Shown in pieces: positions 42,683 to 56,924 of a stretch of 64,000 nucleotides of DNA. The position numbers and the translations under genes were made by a program. The DNA comes from Porticoccaceae bacterium (GTDB lineage Bacteria; Pseudomonadota; Gammaproteobacteria; Pseudomonadales; Porticoccaceae). The stretch covers positions 1 to 64,000 of the forward strand of contig CACEBC010000002.1 in NCBI GenBank assembly GCA_902557735.1. Reading direction: 5' to 3'. A model generated the notes under the pieces. The model had not been told where the DNA came from. It did not search any database and saw only the letters and a program-made list of their open reading frames with translations. Positions within the stretch are counted from its first letter, which is position 1, and every line of letters starts with the position of its first letter.

Positions 42683-45301
42683 ATGAAAAGAATGTTAATA
42701 AACGCCTCTCACACCGAAGAGGTGCGGGTTGCTATGGTTGATGGACAGCGTCTCTATGATCTTGATATAGAGAACAAAAATCGAGAACAAAAAAAGTCTA
42801 ATATTTACCAAGGTAAAGTCACGAGAGTAGAACCCAGTTTGGAGGCTGCTTTTGTCGACTATGGGGCTGCTCGGCATGGTTTTTTACCACTAAAAGAAAT
42901 ATCCAAAGAATACTTTCAAAAGAAATCAAATGATGCCGGAAAAATTCGGATACAGGATGCTCTAAAGGATGGGCAAGAAATAATCGTTCAAGTCGAAAAA
43001 GAGGAAAGGGGTTCAAAAGGAGCAGCTCTAACGACATTTGTAAGCCTAGCAGGCCGTTATCTCGTTCTAATGCCCAACAATCCCCGCGCGGGCGGCATAT
43101 CAAGGCGGATTGACGGCGACGATCGATCCGAATTACGGGAAGCAATGCGAGATCTTAAAATTCCAGATAATATGGGTGCGATAGTCAGGACTGCTGGAAT
43201 TGGGCGTGATACAGAGGAACTGCAATGGGATCTGGATTATCTTCACCAACTTTGGCGAACAATAAAAGCAGAGGCTAATCAAACGAAAGCACCTCATTTT
43301 TTATTCCAAGAGAGTAATGTAATTGTAAGAGCAATCAGGGATTATCTTCGTCATGACGTAGGCGAAGTGGTTATTGACAGCTCTGAATCCTATGATCTCG
43401 CTTCCGCCTTTATCAAGACCGTGATGCCAGACTTTACGAGTAAGGTCAAGTTCTATAATGAACAAATACCTCTATTCAATCGATTTCAAATTGAAAACCA
43501 AATAGACACTGCTTTCTGCAGAGAAGTTAGTCTGCCGTCTGGAGGCTCCATAGTAATCGACATAACGGAAGCTTTGGTATCAATAGATATTAACTCAGCC
43601 AGAGCTACTAAAGGTGGCGATATTGAGGAAACAGCAATTAATACCAATAAGGAAGCAGCCGAAGAAATCGCTAGGCAACTTCGCATACGAGACGTAGGCG
43701 GCTTGATAGTAATTGACTTTATTGACATGTTGAATAATCGTCATCAAAAAGAAGTAGAAAATAAAATGCGTCACGCTCTGGAAATTGACCGAGCACGTGT
43801 TCAAGTTGGGCGTATTTCTCGTTTCGGACTGCTTGAAATGTCCAGACAACGACTGCGTCCCTCGCTTGAGGAGACCATGTCTAAAGTATGTCCGCGCTGT
43901 CAAGGTCAAGGCTCCATTCGCGGCACCCGATCATTAGCATTGTCTATTCTCCGCATGGTTGAAGAGGAAGCCCAAAAGGAATATAGCAAAACTATCAAGG
44001 CAGTCGTTCCATTGGCAATAGCGACATTTCTGCTCAATGAGAAACGGCAAGACATTGTAGATATTGAATCTCGCAATGGCATCCAATTAATTGTGCTTCC
44101 AAACCCGAATATGGAGACTCCTCAGTATGAAGTGCAACGAATAAGAGAGCAGGATGAAGATGTATCCAACCCGAGTCACCAGCTAGCTGAAAAACTTTCT
44201 GAGGGAAGTCTGGAAGGTACCAAAGATATATTGCATGTTGATGCGCCACTAGCGCAGCCAGCAGTAAAGACTCTGGCACCAGCAACTCGTGCCCCTTCTT
44301 CAAAATCAAAGGTTATAGGAACACCGCGAGAAAATTGGATTAAACGCATGTTTGGACTGTTCTTTCCATCTAAGAAGGTTATCTCAAGTCCTGAAAAAAA
44401 GACACCTCGACGTTCCTCCAAGAGTAGGAGGCCGCAGAACCGCTACAGAGATGAAAAAAACAGACAACGTTCTTCCAAATCTCGTAATAGAAATGACAAA
44501 GATAGCATTAATGCAGAAGTTCGAGAGGATCGGCAAAAAGCCCGACAAAAACAGTCCGGTCCAACAAAGAAGCAATCTTCAAAGCCTATTGGAAAGCAAA
44601 GTAAAGGGGCAAGTGATTTGGAGGAGCGAAAATCGACCGAGCCGGAATCTCTTCGACGCAGGCCTGACGATAAGCGAAAACCGCTTCGAAAAAGGCGCCC
44701 ACGAAAAGCATCGGCCAAGCCGACTGTTCAGCTTACAAATGACGATACCATAAAAAATGAAGCGACTCATACCAATATTGCTGAAACTTCTGGTCAGGAA
44801 TTGAAGACGGAGGATGTCAGCATCAGCCCAAGCAAGTCTGATATAGCTAAAGAAAACAAATCAGTACCGTCAAATGCTAAAGAAGGCACCAGAAAGCCAA
44901 GAAAAAGAGGACCTAGGCGCGTTAGGACAGATGAATCAACAGCAGATACCCCTGCTTCAAATGCCTCATCCTCCAAGTTACCGCAAAGCGAGATAGAACA
45001 CTCGGTAAGTGACCCCGCAAAAACAAAGGCTAATGATAGCGTTGAGGAGTCGACAGAGCTCCAGACTAAAACACCCAAAGATATTCGTCCAAGAGCAATC
45101 AATGATCCGAGGAATGAAAGAAAACCGTCTGGCGAGTTAGCACATGATTCAGATTCAATGAAAGAAAATGAGTCTGCTAATTCTGGCGATATCAAGCCTC
45201 CAGAAAAATCGATCATAAAAAAACGTGCTACCAATGATCCCCGAAACAAGAAAGACATCGCTTCCAAGTCGGAAGTTTCAAATATAATTGAGGGGGAATG
45301 A
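42683..45301 (+). CDS. rne: Ribonuclease E
   Basis: RNase E is the main endonuclease of mRNA decay and rRNA/tRNA processing and the scaffold of the degradosome. The 872-residue protein (E. coli 1061) has an S1 domain (about residues 36-120), the catalytic region with [19 protein letters not shown] and IVIDFIDM (the two metal-binding Asp regions), and the zinc-link C403-P-R-C406. From about residue 520 onward the chain is a low-complexity, Lys/Arg/Ser/Glu-rich tail. Two NDPRN motifs in similar contexts ([10 protein letters not shown] and [10 protein letters not shown]) close the protein, a typical RNase E tail element. A helix around [12 protein letters not shown] may be the membrane-targeting segment. 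Confidence 0.96.
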
Positions 45302-45344
45302 CCTTTTAAAATAGTTCCATAATAACTTGATGATTGATCAAAAT

Positions 45345-45372
45345 TTGTCCTGCCACACGAGAGGAGTATAAT
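45345..45372 (+). promoter_or_regulatory. Promoter of tRNA-Ser
   Basis: TTGTCC (45345-45350), 16 bp, and a perfect TATAAT (45367-45372) lie 12 bp before the tRNA 5' end. Confidence 0.55.
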
Positions 45373-45384
45373 GAATAATTGATA

Positions 45385-45475
45385 GGTGGGATGGCAGAGT
45401 GGTTGAATGCACCGGTCTTGAAAACCGGCATAGGTTAATAGCCTATCTAGGGTTCGAATCCCTATCCCACCGCCA
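45385..45475 (+). tRNA. tRNA-Ser (anticodon UGA)
   Basis: The 91-nt gene, with an encoded CCA end (45473-45475), folds into a class II tRNA. The acceptor stem pairs GGTGGGA (45385-45391) with TCCCACC (45465-45471). The anticodon stem CCGGT/ACCGG encloses the loop CTTGAAA with TGA at 45419-45421. A long variable arm (TAGGTTAATAGCCTA) and a T arm with GGTTCGAAT follow. The long variable arm and UGA anticodon assign it to serine. A T-run directly after the CCA may help end transcription. tRNA genes are common integration sites, and an accessory region with an integrase begins just downstream. Confidence 0.98.
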
Positions 45476-45835
45476 TTTTTAAGGACTTAATAGCTCTATA
45501 AGCGCCTAAAATTCATGGTTTCGAGTGCATTAAGATGTTAGTAAAAATAAATAGGTACAATCAGAGGTACAACATGTCTCGGGAATATTTTAGTTTGTCA
45601 TTACACATTCATCTGCATTGTTAGAAAGAAGAGTTAGCAAATATATACTTGCCTAAAGATGAGACGATAGATCGATTCCAAGGAAATTACTGGTCAGTAA
45701 CGAAGGACTTGACCCGATCGCTAGGGGTTTTTTATTCAAGTAGAAATCCACAAACGTCTCGTTTCGTTCGATATGAACACTAAATTTCTCGTAAACAGTT
45801 TGCAGGAAATATAAGGAACGTACTTTCATCCGACT
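45476..45835. other. Gene-poor region after tRNA-Ser
   Basis: No complete gene is supported in these 360 bp. The plus strand has a short frame of about 50 codons (about 45624-45782) without a start codon that could be decayed coding sequence. A GGTACAA heptamer occurs twice within 20 bp (around 45553-45570). No copy of the tRNA 3' end was found by eye. Confidence 0.4.
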
Positions 45836-46042
45836 ATGAAAATGGCGGATAATTCAGTTGGTACTCATGAGTCAACTTTGAAGAATTATACTATTGACGA
45901 TTTAAGAAGCTCTATGGATGCTTGGATTAGGTTTGCCAAATGCACAGAGCCTAAGCTCGAGCCTATGTATTATCATCACGTGGAAAATCGAGTCATTAAC
46001 CCCATTGCTACAAGATTGGGTGGGGCGGAAGTCATCAATTAG
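45836..46042 (+). CDS. Hypothetical small protein
   Basis: This 68-residue open frame starts with an ATG and has a polar composition without a signal peptide or membrane segment. I recognise no family. An AAGGAA sequence lies about 20 bp upstream, too far for a good ribosome site. It could be a short real gene, a remnant, or chance; the location in a decayed, gene-poor stretch after a tRNA argues for caution. Confidence 0.3.
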   Translation: MKMADNSVGTHESTLKNYTIDDLRSSMDAWIRFAKCTEPKLEPMYYHHVENRVINPIATRLGGAEVIN

Positions 46043-46314
46043 ATAGACTCTCTTATGAGCTAAAAAACTTTTTTCATTTGTGCGGCATGCGCTGTGATGA
46101 TATAGATCCCCATCACTAAACCCCCTTTACGGCAGGAAATCCCTCTTACAATAAATCGACCAAGAGGTAACTATCCTTAAAAAATTAACCGCCAATTAAA
46201 TCTATCATGCGCATGGTCTGACCACCTTTTACTGGCAAATACATAAAGCCCAATCACTACAAATCGGAGATGCGCAAAATTATACTCAAAATCATCAGCA
46301 AAAATCTCTTGAAA

Positions 46315-46464
46315 CTAGAAAGCATCTCGCTGCGTACTAGTTATTAATATAAATTTTGCGTAATTCGAATGTCTTTGCTCCCTATTGTAATTGCTGGAAC
46401 CATCTGCTTTGGCTTGGCCCTGATTGAAGTCTTTGATCTTTGCTAGGCTTCCCGAGTTGTACAT
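46315..46464 (-). pseudogene. Possible remnant of an AhpD/carboxymuconolactone-decarboxylase gene
   Basis: A 49-codon minus-strand frame from an ATG at 46464 starts MYNSGSLAKIKDFNQGQAKA. From memory this resembles the N-terminus of a group of AhpD-like carboxymuconolactone-decarboxylase proteins, which begin with MYN, then KIKxFN. The similarity stops after about 20 residues, and the conserved Cys-x-x-Cys region is absent, so if the match is real this is a truncated copy. The assignment rests on recall and is weak. A complete AhpD-like gene is at 51021-51437, but with a different N-terminus. Confidence 0.2.
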
Positions 46465-46546
46465 GACGTGTGTCCCAAAGCGGCCTCTACTCAGCCTAGA
46501 TTCTAAATGCGGCGTGAAAAGTCTTTGGCCTTTATTCTAAAAAGGG

Positions 46547-48136
46547 TCACCACAATGTTAAAACCAGACAAATTAACATAATGAGAAAGAACACTTTAAA
46601 TAATTTCAGGACATGGGCTGTATACAAAGACTGTTGTTGGAATCTTAGATTGAGTGTAACTGAATCTCGGCCCTGATTATCAGAGTCGGCGGAATACATC
46701 TTAGCTGCACCTATTGAAAGCAACACCGCGATCCAAGCAGAAATAAATCCTAGCACATTCCACCAAAGCCAAGATATCTCAGGGATAAAAGTTGCAGTAA
46801 CAACATTGCTTAAAAAACCAAAGAAGAAACCAAACAGTGCCCTAACCTCACCCAAGTTTTTAAAGAAAACAGCCATACATACCAATGCGAAAAGCGGTCC
46901 ATTTATCATGGAACCAATCTTGTTTACGGCTTCTAACACGGTAGGAGCGATATTCTCTACCTGGAATGAAAAAGCGATCGCAACAAATCCCCAAACAAGC
47001 GTACAAATCCGTCCATATGCGAGCAACGTCGATTCTTCAATTTCCTCTGAAATATTTGGCAATATAAAATCCTCGACTGTAACGGCTGAGAGGCTGTTTA
47101 GTGACGAGTCAACAGATGACATGGCTGCAGCAACAAGTCCTATGAGAACCAATCCAACAGCTCCCTCTGAAAAATACTTGGCTACAAAAACTGGGACCAC
47201 TAAATTATAGTTTGGAGAGCCATCCTCGAGCAAAGGCAATGCGCTGATAAAAGTTGTATCCTTTTGTGCTAAAGCTGCCAAGCCTAGCCCTAGTACGCAA
47301 TATAAAAAGACCAAAGGAAATCGTAAGATTCCATTAAAAAACAGGATGTTTTGTAAGTCATTTTGTGAGCGAGAGGCTAAAATTCTCTGCGCTTGACTCT
47401 GATCACAACCGTAGTAAGCCATATATAAAAATATACCGCCGAACAACATTGGATAAAAACCGTAATCATTACCTGAAAATCCCCAGTCATTGACGAAAAC
47501 GTGTTTTCTTTCAGTGCCGAAAAAATCCCAGTTTATAATGTCGCCTAAAAAAAAGATTGAAAAAACTACAGCGGTTGTCAGGAGAATTAGCTGCACTACG
47601 TCACTGATGACTACGGCAGAGAGCCCGCCAATGAGGTCGTACAGCAGTGTCACTGTCATTAGTAGCGCAACGGAGTAAAAAAAACTTATGCCGAACATAA
47701 ATGACACCACAAGCGAACTGGCATAGATTATTACCCCAGTAGCGATAGATCTGAAAATCAAAAAGCAACCAGCAGCAGTTAGGCAACTTCTGCGACCCAA
47801 ATTTAACTCAAGAACTTGGTATATCGACGTTACCTTTGCTTCTCTGACCGGAGCCAACACAAATACGAGCAGTGCCATAGCGATGGGAACCGCTAATTCA
47901 TATTGAAGCCAAATGAGTCCCCCACCAACGGAGAAGCCTACAAAAGCAGGCGCCCCAAGGAGGCTATTTGTAGAGCATTGAGTAGCAACTGTCGATGCAG
48001 CTAGCGCAGATGGAGGAAAATACCTGCCCCCAAGAAAATAATCCTCACGCGACTTGTGTTTGCGTCCTACGGCCAATGCAATGGCTGCCATGCCAATTAA
48101 ATAGCCTATAACCACTATCCAATCTAAAGACGCCAC
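46547..48136 (-). CDS. Sodium:solute symporter (SLC5/SSS family)
   Basis: This inner-membrane transporter has 529 residues and about 13 membrane segments. Family features include the opening LDWIVVIGYLIGMAAIA, REDYFLGGRYFPPSALAAS, the QCSTNSLLGAPAFVGF stretch, GGLSAVVISDVVQLILL and the helix-8 Na+ site AAAMSSVDSSLNSLS. The solute cannot be read from the sequence; SSS members carry sugars, monocarboxylates, proline, vitamins and more. A xylulokinase gene about 7 kb away makes a sugar one option. It lies between tRNA-Ser and the P4-type integrase, apparently as cargo. Confidence 0.9.
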   Translation of the reverse strand: MASLDWIVVIGYLIGMAAIALAVGRKHKSREDYFLGGRYFPPSALAASTVATQCSTNSLLGAPAFVGFSVGGGLIWLQYELAVPIAMALLVFVLAPVREAKVTSIYQVLELNLGRRSCLTAAGCFLIFRSIATGVIIYASSLVVSFMFGISFFYSVALLMTVTLLYDLIGGLSAVVISDVVQLILLTTAVVFSIFFLGDIINWDFFGTERKHVFVNDWGFSGNDYGFYPMLFGGIFLYMAYYGCDQSQAQRILASRSQNDLQNILFFNGILRFPLVFLYCVLGLGLAALAQKDTTFISALPLLEDGSPNYNLVVPVFVAKYFSEGAVGLVLIGLVAAAMSSVDSSLNSLSAVTVEDFILPNISEEIEESTLLAYGRICTLVWGFVAIAFSFQVENIAPTVLEAVNKIGSMINGPLFALVCMAVFFKNLGEVRALFGFFFGFLSNVVTATFIPEISWLWWNVLGFISAWIAVLLSIGAAKMYSADSDNQGRDSVTLNLRFQQQSLYTAHVLKLFKVFFLIMLICLVLTLW

Positions 48137-48229
48137 AAATACATATCGCCATTATGAAATTTATAGCAAGATTCTAAGTTTATTATCTGGGTATTTCAAA
48201 AGTTATGCTCTTAACTAAATAATCTTATC

Positions 48230-49474
48230 CTAACGGATTCCATAGGCATAATAAGCCCAATCCATCATCAGTTTTCTATGTTGCGCCAGAACATCACCCC
48301 GCTGATACAACGCCCGCGTCTTATCCCTCAAATTATAAGCCAAAGCTTGCTCAGCAATGTCCCCACTAAAGTTAGTTTTTTCCGCAGTGAAGTCGCGAAA
48401 CGTTGATCGAAATCCATGCACCGTAATTTGCCCTGCCCGACCCATTCGTTTAATTACCGATAACATCCCAGCCTGAGAAAGATGTTTTTTTGACGACAGG
48501 TTTGGAAACACATATTGACTGACTTTTTGCCGTTTAACAAAACTCAGAATACCAAGCGACCGGGGAGTCAATGGGATCTCATGACTCACTTTTCCTTTCA
48601 TTCGATTGGCAGGAATCGTCCACGTCTCCGTCTCGAAATCAATTTCATCCCATTTGGCTTTCAGCACCTCTTCAGTTCTATTCGCATTAAGAATCAAAAA
48701 TTCTAATGCTCTTGCACCCATACCATCTATTTCCCTCAATTCACGCATAAACTCAGGAAGATCGCTGTAGGGTAGCGCTTTGTGATGCCTTTTCTCTTTA
48801 GGCTTTCTTTTATTTTTAGTTTTTTCGACGTTTGGCAGACTGAACTCTATACAACCTCGCCATACTGCAGGATTACCATTGGTTCGCAATCCGTCACTGA
48901 TAGCGCTGCGCAGAACTGCCTCTACACGACGCCTGACACGATCAGCAGTCTCAGTTTTGTCAAACCAAATCGGCTTTAAGATTTCAAGAATCTCATCTTT
49001 GGTGATTTCTGAAACAGGACGATGACCTATTACAGGAAAAGCATACTGTTTAAGGCTACTGAGCCATTGTTTCTTTGTTTTATGATTTGTCCATTCATGC
49101 TGGAGATTATCAATGGTGGTATGCGCGCAACTTTCAAATGTGGCAGCTTCCAAACTCTTGGATCGCTGAGCAGCTTTCACTGATCTCTGTTCAAGGATTT
49201 TTTCCTGTTGTTCCATCTCTAAAGGATCAATCCCTCTCTTAACCATTGCTTTCAACTCAAGCACTTTAGCTCTGGCCTTGTTTAAATTATTTTTCTCAGC
49301 ATCATATGCACGCAAGGACTTCTTTCTTGGCCGTTTGTCAATCTGATATCTAAAGACAAAGCGGTTCGAGTTACCTTTCTTGCTCAAGTATAAACTATCC
49401 CCCAAAGAATGGAGTTTATCAGCACCAAACCTGATAATTTCTTCCAATTCTTTTACTGTGACCTTCTTCGCCAT
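48230..49474 (-). CDS. P4-type tyrosine integrase
   Basis: The 414-residue protein has the bipartite prophage-integrase layout: an N-terminal DUF4102-like arm-binding domain (about residues 15-95, with LGDSLYL and DPLEMEQQEK), a core-binding domain, and the catalytic domain. Catalytic residues are R266 (NANRTEEVL), K293/K295 with H298 (MKGKVSHEIPL), H353 and R356 (HGFRSTFRDF) and Y390 (ALYQRGD). At the second His/Trp position the protein has Tyr (ALAY380) where relatives usually have ALAH. Such integrases drive genomic islands into tRNA genes; the nearest is tRNA-Ser at 45385. The integrase is intact but no excision factor or phage gene is seen nearby. Confidence 0.92.
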   Translation of the reverse strand: MAKKVTVKELEEIIRFGADKLHSLGDSLYLSKKGNSNRFVFRYQIDKRPRKKSLRAYDAEKNNLNKARAKVLELKAMVKRGIDPLEMEQQEKILEQRSVKAAQRSKSLEAATFESCAHTTIDNLQHEWTNHKTKKQWLSSLKQYAFPVIGHRPVSEITKDEILEILKPIWFDKTETADRVRRRVEAVLRSAISDGLRTNGNPAVWRGCIEFSLPNVEKTKNKRKPKEKRHHKALPYSDLPEFMRELREIDGMGARALEFLILNANRTEEVLKAKWDEIDFETETWTIPANRMKGKVSHEIPLTPRSLGILSFVKRQKVSQYVFPNLSSKKHLSQAGMLSVIKRMGRAGQITVHGFRSTFRDFTAEKTNFSGDIAEQALAYNLRDKTRALYQRGDVLAQHRKLMMDWAYYAYGIR

Positions 49475-49938
49475 CTTGACACTCCTTTCAAAGGCTATCG
49501 TTGGCTTTTAAGGCGTTCTCTTTCTCAAGACTAAAACGCATCTTAGCCCCCACCTCACAACGTGAGAGCAATTCTGCAGGACCAACCCTAGAGTAAATCT
49601 GCTGTCCGCTCGCCAGACTATAATATAAGACGACAAATTACAAAATACTAAAAGTTCTTTGAATATTGTGAAATAGTAAGGGCTTGGTGAATTTTTAAGA
49701 CCATAAAGGATCACACAAAGATGGTCTTTTTGAATGCAAAATATTATCCCACTTATCATGATCAGTTCGGATTTACGTCATAACCTCTACTGACAAGCAA
49801 TAAAGAGAATCCTAATCAGATGTTGATTTATGGAACGACTTTTAATCAGTTTTTACGGTTTTCAAAAACTTAGTATGTGGATTGTCTTATCGGGTGTACC
49901 ATAGTCGGGCCATCTGAGATTTTAACAGGAGAATAATT
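49475..49938. other. Region upstream of the integrase, with a terminator-like hairpin
   Basis: There is no supported protein gene in these 464 bp. A perfect TATAAT (49619-49624) has no matching -35. A hairpin with T-run follows at 49697-49731 on the plus strand (see the separate ncRNA entry). A 5-bp inverted repeat CTCAC/GTGAG lies around 49555-49567 just upstream of the integrase. An 83-codon minus-strand frame was rejected. Confidence 0.4.
49631..49732 (+). ncRNA. Candidate small RNA
   Basis: A possible transcript of about 100 nt runs from just after TATAAT (49619-49624) to a rho-independent terminator: AAGACCAT (49697-49704) pairs with ATGGTCTT (49721-49728), followed by TTTTTG. No plus-strand gene lies upstream that this terminator could serve, which is why a small RNA is proposed. 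The -35 region is poor and no known family is recognised. Confidence 0.25.
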
Positions 49939-50274
49939 ATGAAGATCCCAGTGATATTCATGTTTGTTTTGGTATTTCCGACCAGTCAAGTTAATGCGTT
50001 TGATAACCCAAGCGGTGATCGCGGTGATTACGAGGACTTGAGAGACCCTCGCGGTGATTACGAGGACTTGAGAGACCCTCGCGGTGATTACGAGGACTTG
50101 AGAGGTCCCCACGATGACTACCAGAATAATGCATCTGATGACCGTCCATGGAGAGAAATTCTAAAAAACTGCAGGGAAATGAAGAAAGCAGGCACGCTAT
50201 CTGCTAAGATGAAAAGAGAATGCAAGGCCGCACGCGAGCTCAGAAAAACAAACAAAGAGTTGCGGGAGGACTAG
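49939..50274 (+). CDS. Secreted small protein with RGDYEDLRDP repeats
   Basis: The 111-residue protein has an N-terminal signal peptide of about 20 residues (core VIFMFVLVF, likely cut after VNA). Then come three 10-residue repeats RGDYEDLRDP (the last one ends RGP) and a worn fourth start (HDDYQN), giving an acidic, extended segment with repeated RGD tripeptides. The C-terminal half is charged and Lys/Arg/Glu-rich with two cysteines (NCREMKK and RECKAAR), which could form a disulfide. AGGAG stands ahead of the ATG. It should be periplasmic or extracellular. I recognise no family; the C-terminal part vaguely recalls small exported, charged, helical proteins. Confidence 0.75.
   Translation: MKIPVIFMFVLVFPTSQVNAFDNPSGDRGDYEDLRDPRGDYEDLRDPRGDYEDLRGPHDDYQNNASDDRPWREILKNCREMKKAGTLSAKMKRECKAARELRKTNKELRED
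50021..50110 (+). repeat. Three tandem 30-bp coding repeats
   Basis: Units at 50021-50050 and 50051-50080 are identical, and 50081-50110 differs only in its last few bases; a degenerate fourth unit starts at 50111. Each encodes one RGDYEDLRDP-type repeat. Identity at synonymous sites shows recent expansion. Confidence 0.95.
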
Positions 50275-50339
50275 ATAAAGTGTATTGCCGACCTCACTAA
50301 AATTGCAGCAAGAGAATACTTTTAAGCTATCATGTTGAT

Positions 50340-50363
50340 GAGGGAGTCTTTAAAAGCTCCCTC
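50340..50363 (+). terminator. Hairpin after the repeat-protein gene
   Basis: GAGGGAG (50340-50346) pairs with CTCCCTC (50357-50363); the loop can form a short inner CTT/AAG stem. It is 66 bp after the stop. No T-run follows, so it is a weak terminator candidate. Confidence 0.4.
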
Positions 50364-50463
50364 TCGCTTCACATCCCGCCATTACTTTACCAAAAGCGGC
50401 TTTTAAATCATCAGGGGAGTTTCTGCAGCTTGGCTAAATGTTTAGCCTTCTATAACCAAGTGC

Positions 50464-50751
50464 TCATATTCCCTCAACCAAGACCAGTTCTGTCGAACAA
50501 GCCATTTCTCTGACTATCTTTGCGGCAGAGTATTCTTCAGATTCATAGAACCTTTTTGCATGTTCGATACTTTCAAACTCTAACGCAATAACCAAACCAG
50601 CGTTTTCTCCTTCCCTAAGATCTGGATGAGGGTTCCTTATTAACGCCTTGCCTTCATATTTTGTAATGATGGGTAAGGACATCTCTCTAAACTCTTCGAA
50701 GCCCTCTTTGTCGTGAATATTTATATGCGCAATAAGATAACCTTTTGCCAT
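50464..50751 (-). CDS. DUF1330-family protein
   Basis: This 95-residue protein is a ferredoxin-like-fold DUF1330 domain of the dimeric alpha-beta barrel type. Recognisable are the opening KGYLIAHINIHDKEGFEEF, a central ALIRNPHPD followed by GLVIALEFESIEHAKRFYES and the EYSAAKIVRE ending. The ATG at 50751 has AGGA at an 8-base spacing; the frame is open to 50778 but the extension lacks a ribosome site. Function of the family is not known. It is a lone gene within the accessory region. Confidence 0.85.
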   Translation of the reverse strand: MAKGYLIAHINIHDKEGFEEFREMSLPIITKYEGKALIRNPHPDLREGENAGLVIALEFESIEHAKRFYESEEYSAAKIVREMACSTELVLVEGI

Positions 50752-51020
50752 TTCATTTCCTCTTGAGATCTGAGTCACGTATTAGAGTGACTAATTAGTA
50801 GCTAAGTCGACAGTATTGATAGCTTTCGACCGTGACTCAAGTAAAAAGCTAACTCTAACATATTAACTTCTTAATGATATTTCATCAAAAGTAAAGAGTT
50901 GTAATTCAAGATATTTCGTCATGCTCCAAATCCCATCCAAATATTTACAAAACCTATCAACAGATAAGCGATGACGGATTCAATCTGAAAGATCTGCATC
51001 GGCTTAAATACCTCAAAAGT

Positions 51021-51437
51021 TTATTGGGGAAACATCTGCATAAATTTGGTCATATTAAACTGACTGCCATAGAGCATAGAACTGTTTAGAGCCACATCTG
51101 CTGCGATAGCTACAGCGGTCTTAATCTCTTCATCGGTTGCTCCTGCAGCTTTCGCTAGTGCTGTATGAGCAGGAATACAATATTCGCATCTCATTGCAAC
51201 AGAGGCGGAGAGAGCTGCAAGTTGGGCATGCTTTAAAGGTATGGCTCCATTAAAAACATGCTTCTCAACTTCTGCATAATAAGCTTCTGCTGCTTTTTGA
51301 ATCCCCGACGGATGAAGTTGAATCAGTGGATTAGCTGCTGTAGCGCTTTCCAATTCAAGCATGTCTTGCTCTTCTGCCGTAACTTCGACGTAAATTGACG
51401 TTAAAATTACAACTGCTACTAAAATACGTAATTGCAT
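51021..51437 (-). CDS. Exported AhpD-like/carboxymuconolactone-decarboxylase-family protein
   Basis: The 138-residue protein starts with a probable signal peptide (about residues 1-21, core ILVAVVILTSIYV), unusual in a family that is mostly cytoplasmic. The AhpD-like core has the redox motif C84-E-Y-C87 followed by the proton-relay H91 (CEYCIPAHT) and ATDEEIKTAVAIAADVALNS. Such proteins act as thiol peroxidases or disulfide reductases. Periplasmic location is inferred. It is alone, with no peroxiredoxin partner next to it. Confidence 0.85.
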   Translation of the reverse strand: MQLRILVAVVILTSIYVEVTAEEQDMLELESATAANPLIQLHPSGIQKAAEAYYAEVEKHVFNGAIPLKHAQLAALSASVAMRCEYCIPAHTALAKAAGATDEEIKTAVAIAADVALNSSMLYGSQFNMTKFMQMFPQ

Positions 51438-51622
51438 GATGTTTCCTTAATGATTAATTAGTTGAGAGGCTGAGTGCCTATGGCTCGCCTACAAAAAACC
51501 TCAAATCTCTCAATGGATTTGGGATATGTAGATTAACCGAATTGGGGATTTACCGAAAGAACCAAAGTATAGCGAAAATTGGAATTAATTTACTATTGCT
51601 AATTGTTTCTAATTGACTGGCA

Positions 51623-51859
51623 CTATTTCCCAACCACTTGCAATGCGCGCCATGCTCGCGGCATAACGCAGTCAATAAACTTGCCAAAGGACCCACGCAA
51701 TACATAAGTTCTGCCAGCTATTAGCCAATCGGTAGCTTCACACAAAGCCTCATCAGAATCCGAAACAAACGCGTTCCTAAAATCTGCTATCTCTGCTGAC
51801 GGAGTTCCTTGCCCCGAAAACCATCGATACATGCCGCCTTTAATACTGACGCTATCCAT
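51623..51859 (-). CDS. Hypothetical protein
   Basis: This 78-residue open frame begins MDSVSIKGGMYRWFSG and has a mixed composition with several Trp and Arg residues and two Cys. No signal peptide, membrane segment or known motif is visible. It has a possible start at 51859 and could be an old fragment of a longer gene. Its reality is uncertain. Confidence 0.35.
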   Translation of the reverse strand: MDSVSIKGGMYRWFSGQGTPSAEIADFRNAFVSDSDEALCEATDWLIAGRTYVLRGSFGKFIDCVMPRAWRALQVVGK

Positions 51860-51904
51860 AGATCCGGCGCCACCGAAGAGTTGAAATTGAATTAGCCTCT
51901 TCTG

Positions 51905-52147
51905 TCAATTTTCCAGATTATTCAAACCAGATCTCACGGCCCTTCCCAAGAGATTAAAGATCGCTAGTGACACCCAACCAAAAGTAATCCATCGCATAGC
52001 CTTACTTGTTACCCTCATCCGGGCGAAAATCCAAGCTATATTACCAGTATTGAGGTTTGCCGCGATGAATTCATGAGCGCCGACGATCAGGCTATAAAAT
52101 CTTTCATATCTTTTTTTATTAAGATTAAAAGAGATAATTTTGAGCAT
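51905..52147 (-). CDS. Hypothetical small membrane protein
   Basis: This 80-residue open frame starts MLKIISFNLNKKRYERF and carries one likely membrane segment near the C-terminus (MRWITFGWVSLAIFNLLG). I recognise no family. It lies 45 bp from the neighbouring hypothetical gene on the same strand and the two might be expressed together. The chance of being a real gene is moderate. Confidence 0.35.
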   Translation of the reverse strand: MLKIISFNLNKKRYERFYSLIVGAHEFIAANLNTGNIAWIFARMRVTSKAMRWITFGWVSLAIFNLLGRAVRSGLNNLEN

Positions 52148-52383
52148 CAGAATCAGGCAAGTGATCTTCAGCGATACTTATCATTGGTAATTTCACAAGT
52201 ACTCATCGGAGAGCGCATTTTTATGAGCTCTGTCGTGTCATAAAACCCTATTTTTACTCAGAAGCTAAATAGAAAATTCAATCATTTATATGAATTGCAA
52301 GCTAGTATTCGCATGTGAGTATTAAATTTAATTTTTTTGATGAAAAGGCAGCAATAGTTACCGATGTCGCAAGCTTATAATGA

Positions 52384-52800
52384 CTACCAGTCGTTTGAGA
52401 ATATCGTCCGAGATTCATTATTATTTTGTCGATATAACCAAAAACTGAGGGGCACAAGCATTGCTATAGCCACCCAGTAGGAAAAAATATTAGAGAAAGA
52501 AATTAGCTGGTAAAGAACGCCAAATAAAATCAAGAAGTTGTTGAACACCAGTAAAGGCGCAACAGACGAAAGTGGCCGGCGACGCCTCAAATAATTTAGG
52601 CCGAAAAACGCCAACATCATAAAAGCCGATGAGCGGATGACGTGTAAATAATAGCTCTCTGGCTCAGGATTAAAAGTTTCAAAGGCCATAGCTGCCAAAG
52701 TAATGTTATATCCAAAAAGCGGCAGAATGGCTGATACAGTAAGATAAAAACAAAGCAAACTCATGAAAATTTTTTGCACTGTTTCTAGTTCGGGTCTCAT
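52384..52800 (-). CDS. Hypothetical four-span membrane protein
   Basis: The 138-residue protein has four likely membrane segments: about residues 10-30, 58-75, 82-103 and 105-122, with a positively charged loop (YLRRRRP) between the second and third. Its composition and regular spacing of segments indicate a genuine integral inner-membrane protein. No family is recognised. It is flanked by gaps of several hundred base pairs. Confidence 0.6.
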   Translation of the reverse strand: MRPELETVQKIFMSLLCFYLTVSAILPLFGYNITLAAMAFETFNPEPESYYLHVIRSSAFMMLAFFGLNYLRRRRPLSSVAPLLVFNNFLILFGVLYQLISFSNIFSYWVAIAMLVPLSFWLYRQNNNESRTIFSNDW

Positions 52801-53155
52801 GGAATTATCTTTAATCTCCTGGTAGCACGAAATAGTAGAAATAGATATATTAAAACGATTTATATAAATAAACCGTGCAACTATAAAACAGGTTATTGTA
52901 AGTTTCTATTATTTATGTGATAAAAACACCACAAGTATATGAAGTTAATGATTATTCTAGGGGTAATCTCACTAGTTTGGTGCATAATTGCAATATGAAA
53001 TGACGCCTGCTGAGAAGACTGACACCAAATTCAATTCATCCACGCTAGAGTGTGTAGACATTTAAAGTTGCCATCAAACAAGTTCCTTGGAGGTCATTTT
53101 CGATATTATATCAGTCGCTTCAAATACGCGGTTTTATTGAGAAAACCTGCAATAT
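52801..53155. other. AT-rich gap
   Basis: These 355 bp are AT-rich. The only item seen is a 20-codon plus-strand frame at 52939-52998 that would make a 19-residue hydrophobic peptide (MKLMIILGVISLVWCIIAI), without a ribosome site. It is noted as a weak small-membrane-peptide candidate. Confidence 0.3.
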
Positions 53156-53626
53156 TTAACCATCTTTGAGATGGGCCATTTTATAAACTAATCTGATATT
53201 TGGAACAAAACTAAGTTCTATCTCAACGTGGCTATATAGCATATTATCAAACTGCAATTTTTCTTGAATATTTCCTGCCGTACGCAAAACTTTTAATAAA
53301 CTATATCCAAAACGGTTATCCTCAAGATTTTCATCAGCAGCACCCTCATCCGAGTCTAAATCTGCTGAATAAACAAAATGCGGGATAAGCTTCGGAGGCA
53401 GACCTAACTCTACTTCCAATTCATGAAGTGTATAACCGGCTTTCGAAAGGTAGGGTAAGGCGGCATTAAATTCGTCTATGAGCGATAAGATTTTGTCCGA
53501 TGCAACTTCTTGCCCAAGATGAAAAGTTTTATTCAAGCCATCGGTGATCTCTTTCGAGATGTGATTTTCACCGATCTTACTCTCAAGAATTTTATTTTTC
53601 GCATCATCCAAAAGGTTTTTTAACAT
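53156..53626 (-). CDS. Hypothetical cytoplasmic protein
   Basis: The 156-residue protein is acidic, probably soluble and largely helical in the first half (NLLDDAKNKILESKI). It includes a GYTLHELEVELGLPP motif and an acidic stretch DLDSDEGAADENLED in the middle, then a hydrophobic beta-rich end. The ATG at 53626 with GGAG about 9 bp upstream is preferred over an ATG at 53641 that has no ribosome site. It has the look of a conserved gene, but I do not recognise the family. Confidence 0.6.
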   Translation of the reverse strand: MLKNLLDDAKNKILESKIGENHISKEITDGLNKTFHLGQEVASDKILSLIDEFNAALPYLSKAGYTLHELEVELGLPPKLIPHFVYSADLDSDEGAADENLEDNRFGYSLLKVLRTAGNIQEKLQFDNMLYSHVEIELSFVPNIRLVYKMAHLKDG

Positions 53627-53927
53627 ATAAGTCTGCTCCATTAACTGTTATTTGCTGATATTTCTCTCGTCTGCTGAGCTGCTTAATCGAACCTCACGCT
53701 GAACAATCATCAAAGCTATCGATACTAAATAATTTTGAAACCAAGGTCGGCAAATATAGAATATTTCAAAGCGAATGTTGACTAAAATTTAGATTAGCGC
53801 ATACTATTTTTAGCTTAGAGAGTATAGTGGGAATCATTTCGTTAGGTGCGCACCTTTTGTTAGAAATTAAACGCTCTTCACATTTAGCCTAATATGATTA
53901 ATACGTCGGCACCTCTGGAGTAGAAAC

Positions 53928-54323
53928 ATGTCGCTAGTCACTTGTCCAAGCTGTTCAGCGCAAATTTGGGACACGGCAATTAGCTGCCCACAATGCTCTT
54001 TCAAATTTCAGAGCGCCTCAAGATCATTTTACGGCGATACCATCAGAGTATTCTTCTTTTTGTTCAACATTTTTATGGTAAGTGCCTTGGTGATCGGATT
54101 GCTAGAACCAGACATTCGAGGTGAACATCTAATATATCCATTAATAACATGGGTCAGTGGCGGCACCATTCTGGGTTTATTACATTTCATGAATCCCGCA
54201 ATAAATTACGCAAACCCCAGTCAGCAGCGCATCTACATGATTAAGCAACGGAAAATAGTAACGGGATTTGTTGGTATATTAATCGTCATTATTTACTTCG
54301 GCTTCTTGATAGGTAATATTTAG
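53928..54323 (+). CDS. Zinc-ribbon membrane protein
   Basis: The 131-residue protein begins with a zinc ribbon made of two Cys-x-x-Cys knuckles (TCPSCSAQIW and SCPQCSFKF) in its first 26 residues. After that come three likely membrane segments (about 40-60, 68-85 and 109-127). The N-terminal zinc finger plus small membrane domain is common among uncharacterised bacterial proteins. Its role is unknown; the ribbon could bind a partner or nucleic acid. Confidence 0.7.
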   Translation: MSLVTCPSCSAQIWDTAISCPQCSFKFQSASRSFYGDTIRVFFFLFNIFMVSALVIGLLEPDIRGEHLIYPLITWVSGGTILGLLHFMNPAINYANPSQQRIYMIKQRKIVTGFVGILIVIIYFGFLIGNI

Positions 54324-54624
54324 TGGAGAACATGACTTATTTGCGTTAGCAGATATATGGCGAGCGTGTTTGCACAATCTTGGTCAACTGAAGCTAAACA
54401 ATGATTCGTGATAATCGCATTCAAGCCCCCAGATCGCTTCAGAGATAATGTGCTTTATGAAAATCGATCACATTTTTAGTTACGAATCGGCCCCGACCTC
54501 ATTTAGGGTCTGATGCCCAGAAGAGTCATACAATTGGTGTAGAATTTTCACTGCTTTTAGTATCAAAAGCTGATCATAGTCTCGATTATTGTTGACTTTC
54601 TAATATCATTAGCATGAAAAGTTT
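54324..54624. other. Intergenic gap
   Basis: I see no gene in these 301 bp; they must contain the promoter of the RNase HI-like gene, but no convincing pair of -35/-10 boxes was found. Confidence 0.4.
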
Positions 54625-55104
54625 ATGGCAGAACTGAACGGCGAGCCGATATTTCTCACTACGAGCGGATTTTTACAAAATCAGCTGTCTACTGGTTATC
54701 TGAAGAGACTGGGAGCTTGGAGCTATTTGGTAAACCATCCCACTGGACAAAATCATTCATCTGGAAGTTCAATCAACACATCGAACGATAAAATGGCCCT
54801 GACAGCGATCGTAAGGGGTCTGCAGAAAATTCAATTTCAATCGCATGTTGAGATCACTGTCTCTAATGAGATGGTAATGAATGGAGTGACACTCTGGCTT
54901 TATGCTTGGAAGAAAAATAATTGGAAGACATACACCGGAAGCCCAATCGAGAATAGAGAACTATGGCAAGAGCTTGAAAAACTGCTTGATTTTCACACAA
55001 AAGTGACCTGGAAACTTGCAGATGTAACGAAATTAAGACCAGAAACTCACTTCGTGAAAAAATTATGTGAGTTAGAAATTGCATCAGTGATATCGGGCTT
55101 ATAG
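54625..55104 (+). CDS. RNase HI-like protein without catalytic residues
   Basis: The 159-residue protein aligns with RNase HI (E. coli 155 residues) over nearly its whole length. Matching blocks are the first beta strands, NDKMALTAIVRGLQKI (RNase HI NRMELMAAIVALE), the block GVTLWLYAWKKNNWKT (ITQWIHNWKKRGWKT) and NRELWQELEKLL (NVDLWQRLDAAL). All four metal-binding carboxylates are replaced: D10 by T13, E48 by A58, D70 by S80 and D134 by K145; H124 becomes T135. The substrate-binding basic handle (WKKNNW) is retained. The frame is intact, so it is likely a binding-only pseudoenzyme rather than a broken gene. Genome context gives no partner. Confidence 0.8.
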   Translation: MAELNGEPIFLTTSGFLQNQLSTGYLKRLGAWSYLVNHPTGQNHSSGSSINTSNDKMALTAIVRGLQKIQFQSHVEITVSNEMVMNGVTLWLYAWKKNNWKTYTGSPIENRELWQELEKLLDFHTKVTWKLADVTKLRPETHFVKKLCELEIASVISGL

Positions 55105-55412
55105 TAAAATCCTAGCCTTAAATTAGGCAAGTTACACGACTTTGATGATCCAACGAATAAGACCAATTAAATTTCATGAAATTACACAAATTCAAATAGT
55201 ATTATTTTAAATACCGTGGTTGTTGTATTTATTTATATTAACGAAAATCAATTCTTTGCACTCTCACAAGACATAAAATGCCGATACGTTTCAGTTCTTT
55301 ATTATATGCATTCGGAGTATTGACATTGCATGGGAGTTACAATTGGAATACCTATATAGGCGCAGGCTAGTAGTTGCATCTTTGAGAGGAACGAGCGCGA
55401 CCAACAAGATTA
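55105..55412. promoter_or_regulatory. Gap before xylB with a possible promoter
   Basis: No gene is seen in 308 bp. A perfect -35 TTGACA (55320-55325) is followed after 18 bp by TGGAAT (55344-55349), about 65 bp before the kinase start. Confidence 0.35.
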
Positions 55413-56924
55413 ATGACCATGGAAACAGTATTAGGCATTGACTTAGGAACCCAAAGCATCAAATTGGTTTTCTATGACTACAGATCCAAACAAATCGTTT
55501 CACAATCATCAGCGCCACTTAAGGTAATGAGACGGGATGATGGAACCGCAGAACAAAGAATTGAGGACTGGCTAGAAGGGCTGAAGATCTGCTGCGAGCA
55601 AATTCCCAAAGAAGTACGAGCGACGGTGACCGCGATAGGAGTAGCAGGACAACAACACGGGCTCGTGGCTCTAAACGAACAAAATTGCCCTATCTATCCG
55701 GTAAAATTATGGTGCGATACTTCGACTCAACTTGAGGCAGATGAGATACATCGGGCGTGTGGTGGCGCAGATAAAGCCATAGATTTGGCAGGAAATCCTG
55801 TGCTGGTGGGATATACAGCGCCCAAAATTCGTTGGTTGAAGAATAACATTCCGGAGCTTTATGCCACCATGAGACATATTCTCTTGCCTCATGACTACAT
55901 AAATTATGTGTTAACTGGTCAAAAAGTTATGGAGTATGGTGATGCATCAGGCACGGGGATGTTAAACATTTCTAAACGAGAGTGGTCATCTGATCTGTTG
56001 AATGCAATCGATCCTGATTTAAAACTCGAGAAATACCTTCCGCCTTTTGTAAAATCGGACAAGTTCATAGGCATGACTGATCGTGAAGTTTCAATCGAAT
56101 ATGGGATCCCGGAGGGTATTCCAGTATCTACTGGTGGTGGGGATAATATGATGGCTGCTATCGGCACAGGAAACGTAGTATCGGGACGCCTCACTATGAG
56201 TCTGGGAAGTTCGGGCACTCTCTTTGCATTTTCCGACAAAGCCATCATCGATCCCTCTGGAAATGTCGCTGCCTTCTGCAGCTCTACCGATGGTTGGTTG
56301 CCGCTGATGTGCACAATGAATTGCACCTTGGGGACCGAAATTCTTCGTGCCGCTCTCAGTGTGAATTTAAAGGATTTTGACGAGGTGATAGCAAAGTCAG
56401 AGGTGGGCTCTGGCGGTATCACTACGCTACCGTTTTTTAATGGAGAGCGGACCCCAAATCTTCCTCACGCAAAAGGCTGTGTATTTGGATTAACTTCAGA
56501 AAACACAAATACTGGAAACCTTCTCAGATCGCAAATTGAGTCAGCAGCGTATGGGCTAAAGTTTGGACTCAATGAGCTAATGAATTTGGGAGTTAGTGGT
56601 GAAAAACTGATTCTTACAGGTGGAGGCTCAAAAAGTGCGATGTGGCGCCAAATAGTCTCTGATGTATTTGAGGTAGAGATTGCTGTCATGCAGCAAAAAG
56701 AGGGCGCGGCATTTGGTGCCGCATTGCAGGCCCTTTGGGTATTGCTTAAAGAAAACGACCCGGATCTGGAATTAGCGTCAGTCACATCAGAGCATTTGAC
56801 TGAGGATCCCTCCGCATCGACTTCCCCCAATAAGAATAATTTTTCTGCTTACAGAGACGGTTATCAAAGATATGGTGAAGCTGTTGAAATTGTCATGGAC
56901 TTATATTCGAAACCAGCGGATTGA
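55413..56924 (+). CDS. xylB: Xylulokinase (FGGY family)
   Basis: Xylulokinase phosphorylates D-xylulose to xylulose-5-phosphate. The 503-residue protein has the FGGY fold with the ATP-binding opening VLGIDLGTQSIKLVF, the substrate motif GVAGQQHGLVAL (xylulokinase type), KLWCDTST, TGGGDNMMAAIGTG and the late ATPase block LILTGGGSKSAMWRQIVSDV. The catalytic Asp lies in STGGGDN. No xylose isomerase or xylose transporter is adjacent, so the sugar may come from another route or be another ketose. The start is the ATG at 55413 or the one two codons later. It stands alone in the accessory region. Confidence 0.9.
   Translation: MTMETVLGIDLGTQSIKLVFYDYRSKQIVSQSSAPLKVMRRDDGTAEQRIEDWLEGLKICCEQIPKEVRATVTAIGVAGQQHGLVALNEQNCPIYPVKLWCDTSTQLEADEIHRACGGADKAIDLAGNPVLVGYTAPKIRWLKNNIPELYATMRHILLPHDYINYVLTGQKVMEYGDASGTGMLNISKREWSSDLLNAIDPDLKLEKYLPPFVKSDKFIGMTDREVSIEYGIPEGIPVSTGGGDNMMAAIGTGNVVSGRLTMSLGSSGTLFAFSDKAIIDPSGNVAAFCSSTDGWLPLMCTMNCTLGTEILRAALSVNLKDFDEVIAKSEVGSGGITTLPFFNGERTPNLPHAKGCVFGLTSENTNTGNLLRSQIESAAYGLKFGLNELMNLGVSGEKLILTGGGSKSAMWRQIVSDVFEVEIAVMQQKEGAAFGAALQALWVLLKENDPDLELASVTSEHLTEDPSASTSPNKNNFSAYRDGYQRYGEAVEIVMDLYSKPAD

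Follow-up and report, generated by a model that had tools for sequence, protein, structure and literature searches.

A genus-restricted, probably exported small protein of Porticoccaceae with a variable acidic repeat array and a conserved basic C-terminal part

The locus and its gene

The window, by which is meant the whole 64-kb stretch of Porticoccaceae DNA analysed here, contains a short gene with an in-frame repeat array, flanked by an integrase gene on one side and by a DUF1330 gene and then a CMD-family gene on the other (Pfam assignments). The features are listed in Table 1. Homologues were found in two other genomes of the genus, referred to below as G006 and G003.

Table 1. Features of the repeat gene and its neighbour (positions in the window)
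Feature	Position	Strand	Basis
Ribosome-binding-site region, AGGAGA before ATG	49925..49938	+	Three-way upstream DNA alignment
Whole gene, 111 aa plus stop	49939..50274	+	ORF; homologues in G006 and G003; third-position-biased differences
Leader (signal) peptide, residues 1-20	49939..49998	+	Read by eye; hydrophobic, ends V-N-A
Three in-frame 30-bp units, RGDYEDLR(D/G)P	50020..50109	+	Tandem array, self-match
Degenerate half unit HDDYQ	50110..50124	+	11/15 bases shared with unit 1
Basic C-terminal predicted helical hairpin, residues 68-111	50140..50271	+	Invariant columns; AlphaFold2
Tyrosine-recombinase integrase, neighbour	48230..49474	-	Pfam Phage_integrase 1.2e-10, Phage_int_M 4.1e-29

The frame begins just 3' of AGGAGAATAATT. 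A three-way alignment of the upstream DNA revealed AGGAGAATAA as common to the window, G006 and G003, and a longer block is common to the window and G006. The earlier note had placed the repeats in a signal-peptide protein, and a hydrophobic leader can indeed be read by eye at the N terminus. It is kept in all three genomes, where it and the ribosome-binding region are alignable, and it ends at the same place in each (VNA in the window, VIA in G006 and VTA in G003). Cleavage is likely to follow VNA, and the protein is probably exported. Over 38 C-terminal codons, the differences between sequences fall preferentially at third codon positions: 18/25 for window and G006, 14/26 for window and G003, and 19/30 for G006 and G003 (one-sided binomial p of 9e-5, 0.025 and 7e-4, respectively, with sites taken as independent). 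As judged from these sequence comparisons, the frame is a real, lineage-restricted gene encoding a small protein. That a short repeat has simply left a frame open by chance is very improbable: an antisense frame (49870-50112) is open as well, as is readily explained by the ease with which a 30-base repeat leaves the opposite strand open, but the homologues, the kept start and ribosome-binding site, and the third-position bias all speak against chance. A promoter scan returned three candidates against 1.8 expected, none of which stood out, and no terminator was found at the window gene or within the initial 520 bases of the G003 piece.

The repeat array is the sole tandem array that Tandem Repeats Finder reports across the window (50019-50104, period 30, 2.9 copies, 100% matches). 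The exact self-match at lag 30 extends over 56 bases, with an echo of 26 at lag 60; with that echo set aside, the longest exact run at the remaining lags from 4 to 150 is 14. In codon register, the units occupy 50020-50049, 50050-50079 and 50080-50109, and their peptides read RGDYEDLRDP twice and RGDYEDLRGP once, followed by the half unit HDDYQ. The description in the earlier note of two identical 30-bp units and a near-identical third (27/30 in the register used there) holds, and its suggestion of recent copying fits with units 1 and 2 being the same at every base. The worn fourth copy that it also described is weaker than claimed: the half unit shares 11/15 bases with unit 1, but only 13/30 match when a putative fourth copy is scored over the full 30 bases.

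Relatives and distribution

The gene is present in three of the 14 genomes of the genus, its own (G000) included, with E values of 8.8e-27 for the G006 homologue and 5.0e-19 for that of G003. Homologues sharing the C-terminal half, the absence of which the earlier note had named as a refutation of its observation, therefore exist, albeit in these 3/14 genomes only; the C-terminal parts of the two relatives are 83% and 76% identical to that of the window. The family comparison rests on three sequences, two of them from metagenome-assembled genome (MAG) contigs with Ns or breaks within the array. Two public contigs from Porticoccaceae MAGs carry the gene, NZJL01000045.1 (isolate MED13) and, from isolate SP98, PCDB01000045.1; we infer that they correspond to G006 and G003. 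Just one of the five genus genomes with completeness ≥90% and contamination ≤5% carries the gene, so its absence elsewhere is not solely a matter of missing sequence.

Wider searches with the C-terminal part yielded no further family members. At the family level, 33 of 112 genomes gave matches at E ≤1, and those below 0.01 were only the three already known; at the order level, 1/293 genomes matched at 0.01, this being the gene's own; and at the class level, 17/369 matched at 0.05, again including its own. Two class matches below 0.01 (E 0.0016 and 0.0020) were rejected, as both cross stops. Among 43 loci outside the three known genomes (family- and class-search matches for which a locus was given, read on the correct strand), none encodes a small exported protein with the layout of acidic repeats and a basic C-terminal part; many cross stops, and others lie within unrelated longer proteins or short chance frames. 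Of 40 pattern matches in viral contigs none was confirmed, tblastn against phages and plasmids gave no match at E ≤1, and PHROGs returned only entries without an assigned function at E 0.02 to 0.45, which were judged to be noise. No Pfam family was matched at E ≤1 by the window protein or at E ≤0.1 by the protein of G006 or the C-terminal piece from G003, no NCBIfam family was matched, and the PDB sequences contained no relative at E ≤10. The literature search found nothing on tandem repeats in Porticoccaceae or on the RGD motif together with integrins in marine bacteria, and the portions of the broader literature available to us contained nothing on this protein.

The gene is thus a real orphan present in a few close relatives, and its family is unnamed within the databases searched. 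It belongs to a familiar kind, that of orphan, probably exported proteins carrying tandem repeats in frame; the unit and its number vary among relatives, and wider homologues are lacking.

Variation of the repeats and the RGD motif

Whereas the window array consists of three units of 10 residues, that of G006 has 11 units of nine residues (RGGEDMRDP, RGYDDMRDP and close variants, some of the array being obscured by Ns), and at least eight full units can be counted in G003, where RGEEDMRDP alternates with RREEGMRDY or RREADMRDY. The G003 figure is a lower bound, the gene being split between the ends of two contigs, each of which stops within the array; that the two ends belong to one gene is suggested by the units they share. 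The earlier note had suggested that copy number may vary among strains; between species, both unit and number do differ (three versus 11 versus at least eight). All three genomes retain the (M/L)R(D/G)(P/Y) core and a net acidity, and all units seen are in frame. Eleven Ns within the G006 array (contig piece L041, 6776-6827) could stem from a mixture of repeat variants or from reads of ambiguous placement in this MAG.

Species-wise homogenisation of the units was considered and is not clean. The G006 units resemble one G003 type (0.90) no less than they resemble one another (0.88), and only the window units are set apart (0.67-0.73). For this comparison, three of the 11 G006 units were left out because of their Ns, and the window unit was taken without its extra Asp codon.

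The RGD motif had drawn attention in the earlier note as one that binds integrins in animals. It occurs in 3/3 window units but in 0/18 readable units of the relatives, namely none of ten in G006 (the remaining unit has Ns at the RGD residue) and none of the eight full units in G003. Its place is taken there by RGG, RGY, RGE or RRE. The window unit looks like the nine-residue unit with one extra Asp codon, and RGD would then be a by-product of that codon; the motif looks accidental. That the repeats serve in adhesion to animal integrins is therefore highly unlikely, even though the protein has a leader peptide and three successive RGD motifs, since the retention across relatives expected of a bacterial RGD adhesin is not seen. 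No Pfam match to RTX or calcium-binding nonapeptide repeats was found (window protein E ≤1; G006 protein and C-terminal piece of G003 ≤0.1).

The conserved C-terminal part

The C-terminal ~44 residues are the constant portion of the protein: 28 columns are invariant in the three sequences, including a Trp, many Lys/Arg and both of the Cys residues already noticed in this charged half, Cys78 and Cys95. AlphaFold2 places helices at 70-84 and 89-109, with pLDDT of 85-87 for the ten-residue blocks across 71-100 and 70 for block 101-110, whereas nearly all of residues 25-66 fall below 50. The repeat part is accordingly predicted to be disordered and the C-terminal part to form a two-helix hairpin, in a model built on a three-row alignment and of low overall confidence (mean pLDDT 59.8, pTM 0.36). 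Both Cys lie 8.5 residues from the turn centre, an equidistance that makes a disulfide across the hairpin plausible.

A split of charge, with acidic repeats and a basic C-terminal part, is present in all three proteins. The net charge of the repeat part is -11 in the window, -13 in G006 (with seven unreadable residues) and -7 in G003 (first 54 mature residues only), and that of the C-terminal part is +8, +8 and +9, respectively. The net charge of the tail is partly a trivial outcome of copying one acidic unit.

Comparison with known small hairpins offers likeness of form only. CHCH proteins and other twin-Cys α-hairpins pair two helices whose Cys residues face one another across the turn and are arranged in twin CX9C or CX3C motifs. 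The window protein differs in having two Cys in all, one per helix in a C-x16-C arrangement, and matches no Pfam family at E ≤1. The PsiF repeat is exported, as the window protein probably is, and likewise basic, with two Cys around a short turn, but its Cys spacing differs, and its Pfam model was matched by neither the window protein nor its relatives. None of 18 Foldseek matches in the PDB reached 0.001; the best was the helical hairpin of the UPF0291 protein YnzC (PDB 3bhp), also a small two-helix hairpin, with a non-significant E of 1.9 and 16% identity.

Genomic neighbourhood

Gene order around the repeat gene differs in all three genomes, and no partner can therefore be read from context. 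In G006, a CMD gene is followed by a symporter gene, the repeat gene and a RecQ-like gene, where symporter and RecQ are the names we assume for these neighbours. The symporter lies on the opposite side of the repeat gene in the window, indicating that the region is shared but rearranged; when window 46547-53641 is compared with G006 (L041, 2029-7045), the symporter, repeat and CMD genes are seen to be locally reordered. An integrase between symporter and repeat gene is seen in the window only. The G003 neighbours are unlike those of the window and G006, and we take them to be transglycosylase-like and aldo/keto-reductase-like genes. Flanks of ~1.5 kb were also inspected on each side of the symporter in three more genus genomes (L046-L048), and around three more close reductase copies (L050-L052, one with an N run); none contained the repeat gene. 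The repeat gene appears to be an accessory one, readily moved or lost. No integration site was recognised: the segments 45301-49400 and 49481-56500 share no exact direct repeat of ≥13 bases, and the 3' half of tRNA-Ser has no copy longer than 11 bases elsewhere in the window.

Proposed function

These features make a neat, small example of a probably exported protein, restricted to one genus, whose folded part stays constant between species as its disordered acidic repeat tail changes. Our tentative reading, to which we assign a probability of roughly 0.4, is that the basic hairpin binds something and that the acidic tail, variable in length, shields or tunes it. The protein would be exported and its leader cleaved, after which Cys78 and Cys95 could form a single disulfide stapling the hairpin. 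The hairpin would then bind an anionic partner, be it an envelope polymer, a nucleic acid or a protein, and the flexible tail might fold back on it or compete with its target, thereby tuning or shielding its charge. Under such an arrangement, the length and exact sequence of the tail would be free to drift provided that its net negative charge was kept. If the tail does tune the hairpin, it would constitute a simple length-controlled charge switch.

Of the alternatives, the one that survives best, and that we consider only somewhat less likely than the main reading, is that the repeats are neutral filler, gained and lost by slippage without effect, and that the hairpin alone matters. The unit sequence, its period (nine or ten residues) and its number all vary, as this would predict, but the units are all in frame, and the core motif and net acidity persist across the three genomes, few as these are.

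Less probable still is a reversal of roles, in which the tail is the active part, an extracellular trap for cationic peptides or proteins, and the hairpin is simply an envelope anchor. There is a precedent in LbpB, a lactoferrin receptor of Moraxella and Neisseria, which is described as trapping cationic peptides or proteins by means of an anionic low-complexity domain (PMC11022072). LbpB is an exported bacterial protein, as the window protein probably is, and both have a low-complexity region that is highly charged and in part disordered; the repeat part of the window protein is net acidic and modelled with low, disorder-like confidence. The likeness is one of description, and the window protein differs in carrying a short acidic repeat before a 44-residue basic hairpin. 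Trapping by the tail also sits poorly with repeats that change fast beside a conserved hairpin, and with a tail that is not purely anionic but bears both charges (fraction charged 0.48-0.65).

A bolder version of the reading in which the tail tunes the hairpin can be envisaged, although we regard it as a long shot: a self-shielding exported peptide, its disulfide-stapled cationic hairpin quieted by the acidic tail, with strains setting its activity through the gain or loss of 27-30-bp units. Its targets might be, for example, competitors or an anionic envelope polymer.

Other observations

Several minor features of the surrounding DNA were recorded. The CMD-family gene was found in only 2/14 genus genomes, and G006 carries two copies on one 16-kb contig (L059, G006:C7:14017-14427, and L041, 3335-3751), with frames between them that resemble integrases by eye. 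Near the G003 copy of the repeat gene (L042, 328-5170) lie three genes in a row that are presumably sulfatase-like. A 159-residue protein encoded at 54625-55104 of the window matches Pfam RNase_H (1.1e-13), and a frame of the same length in G006 (L041, 665-1144) appears similar to it by eye.
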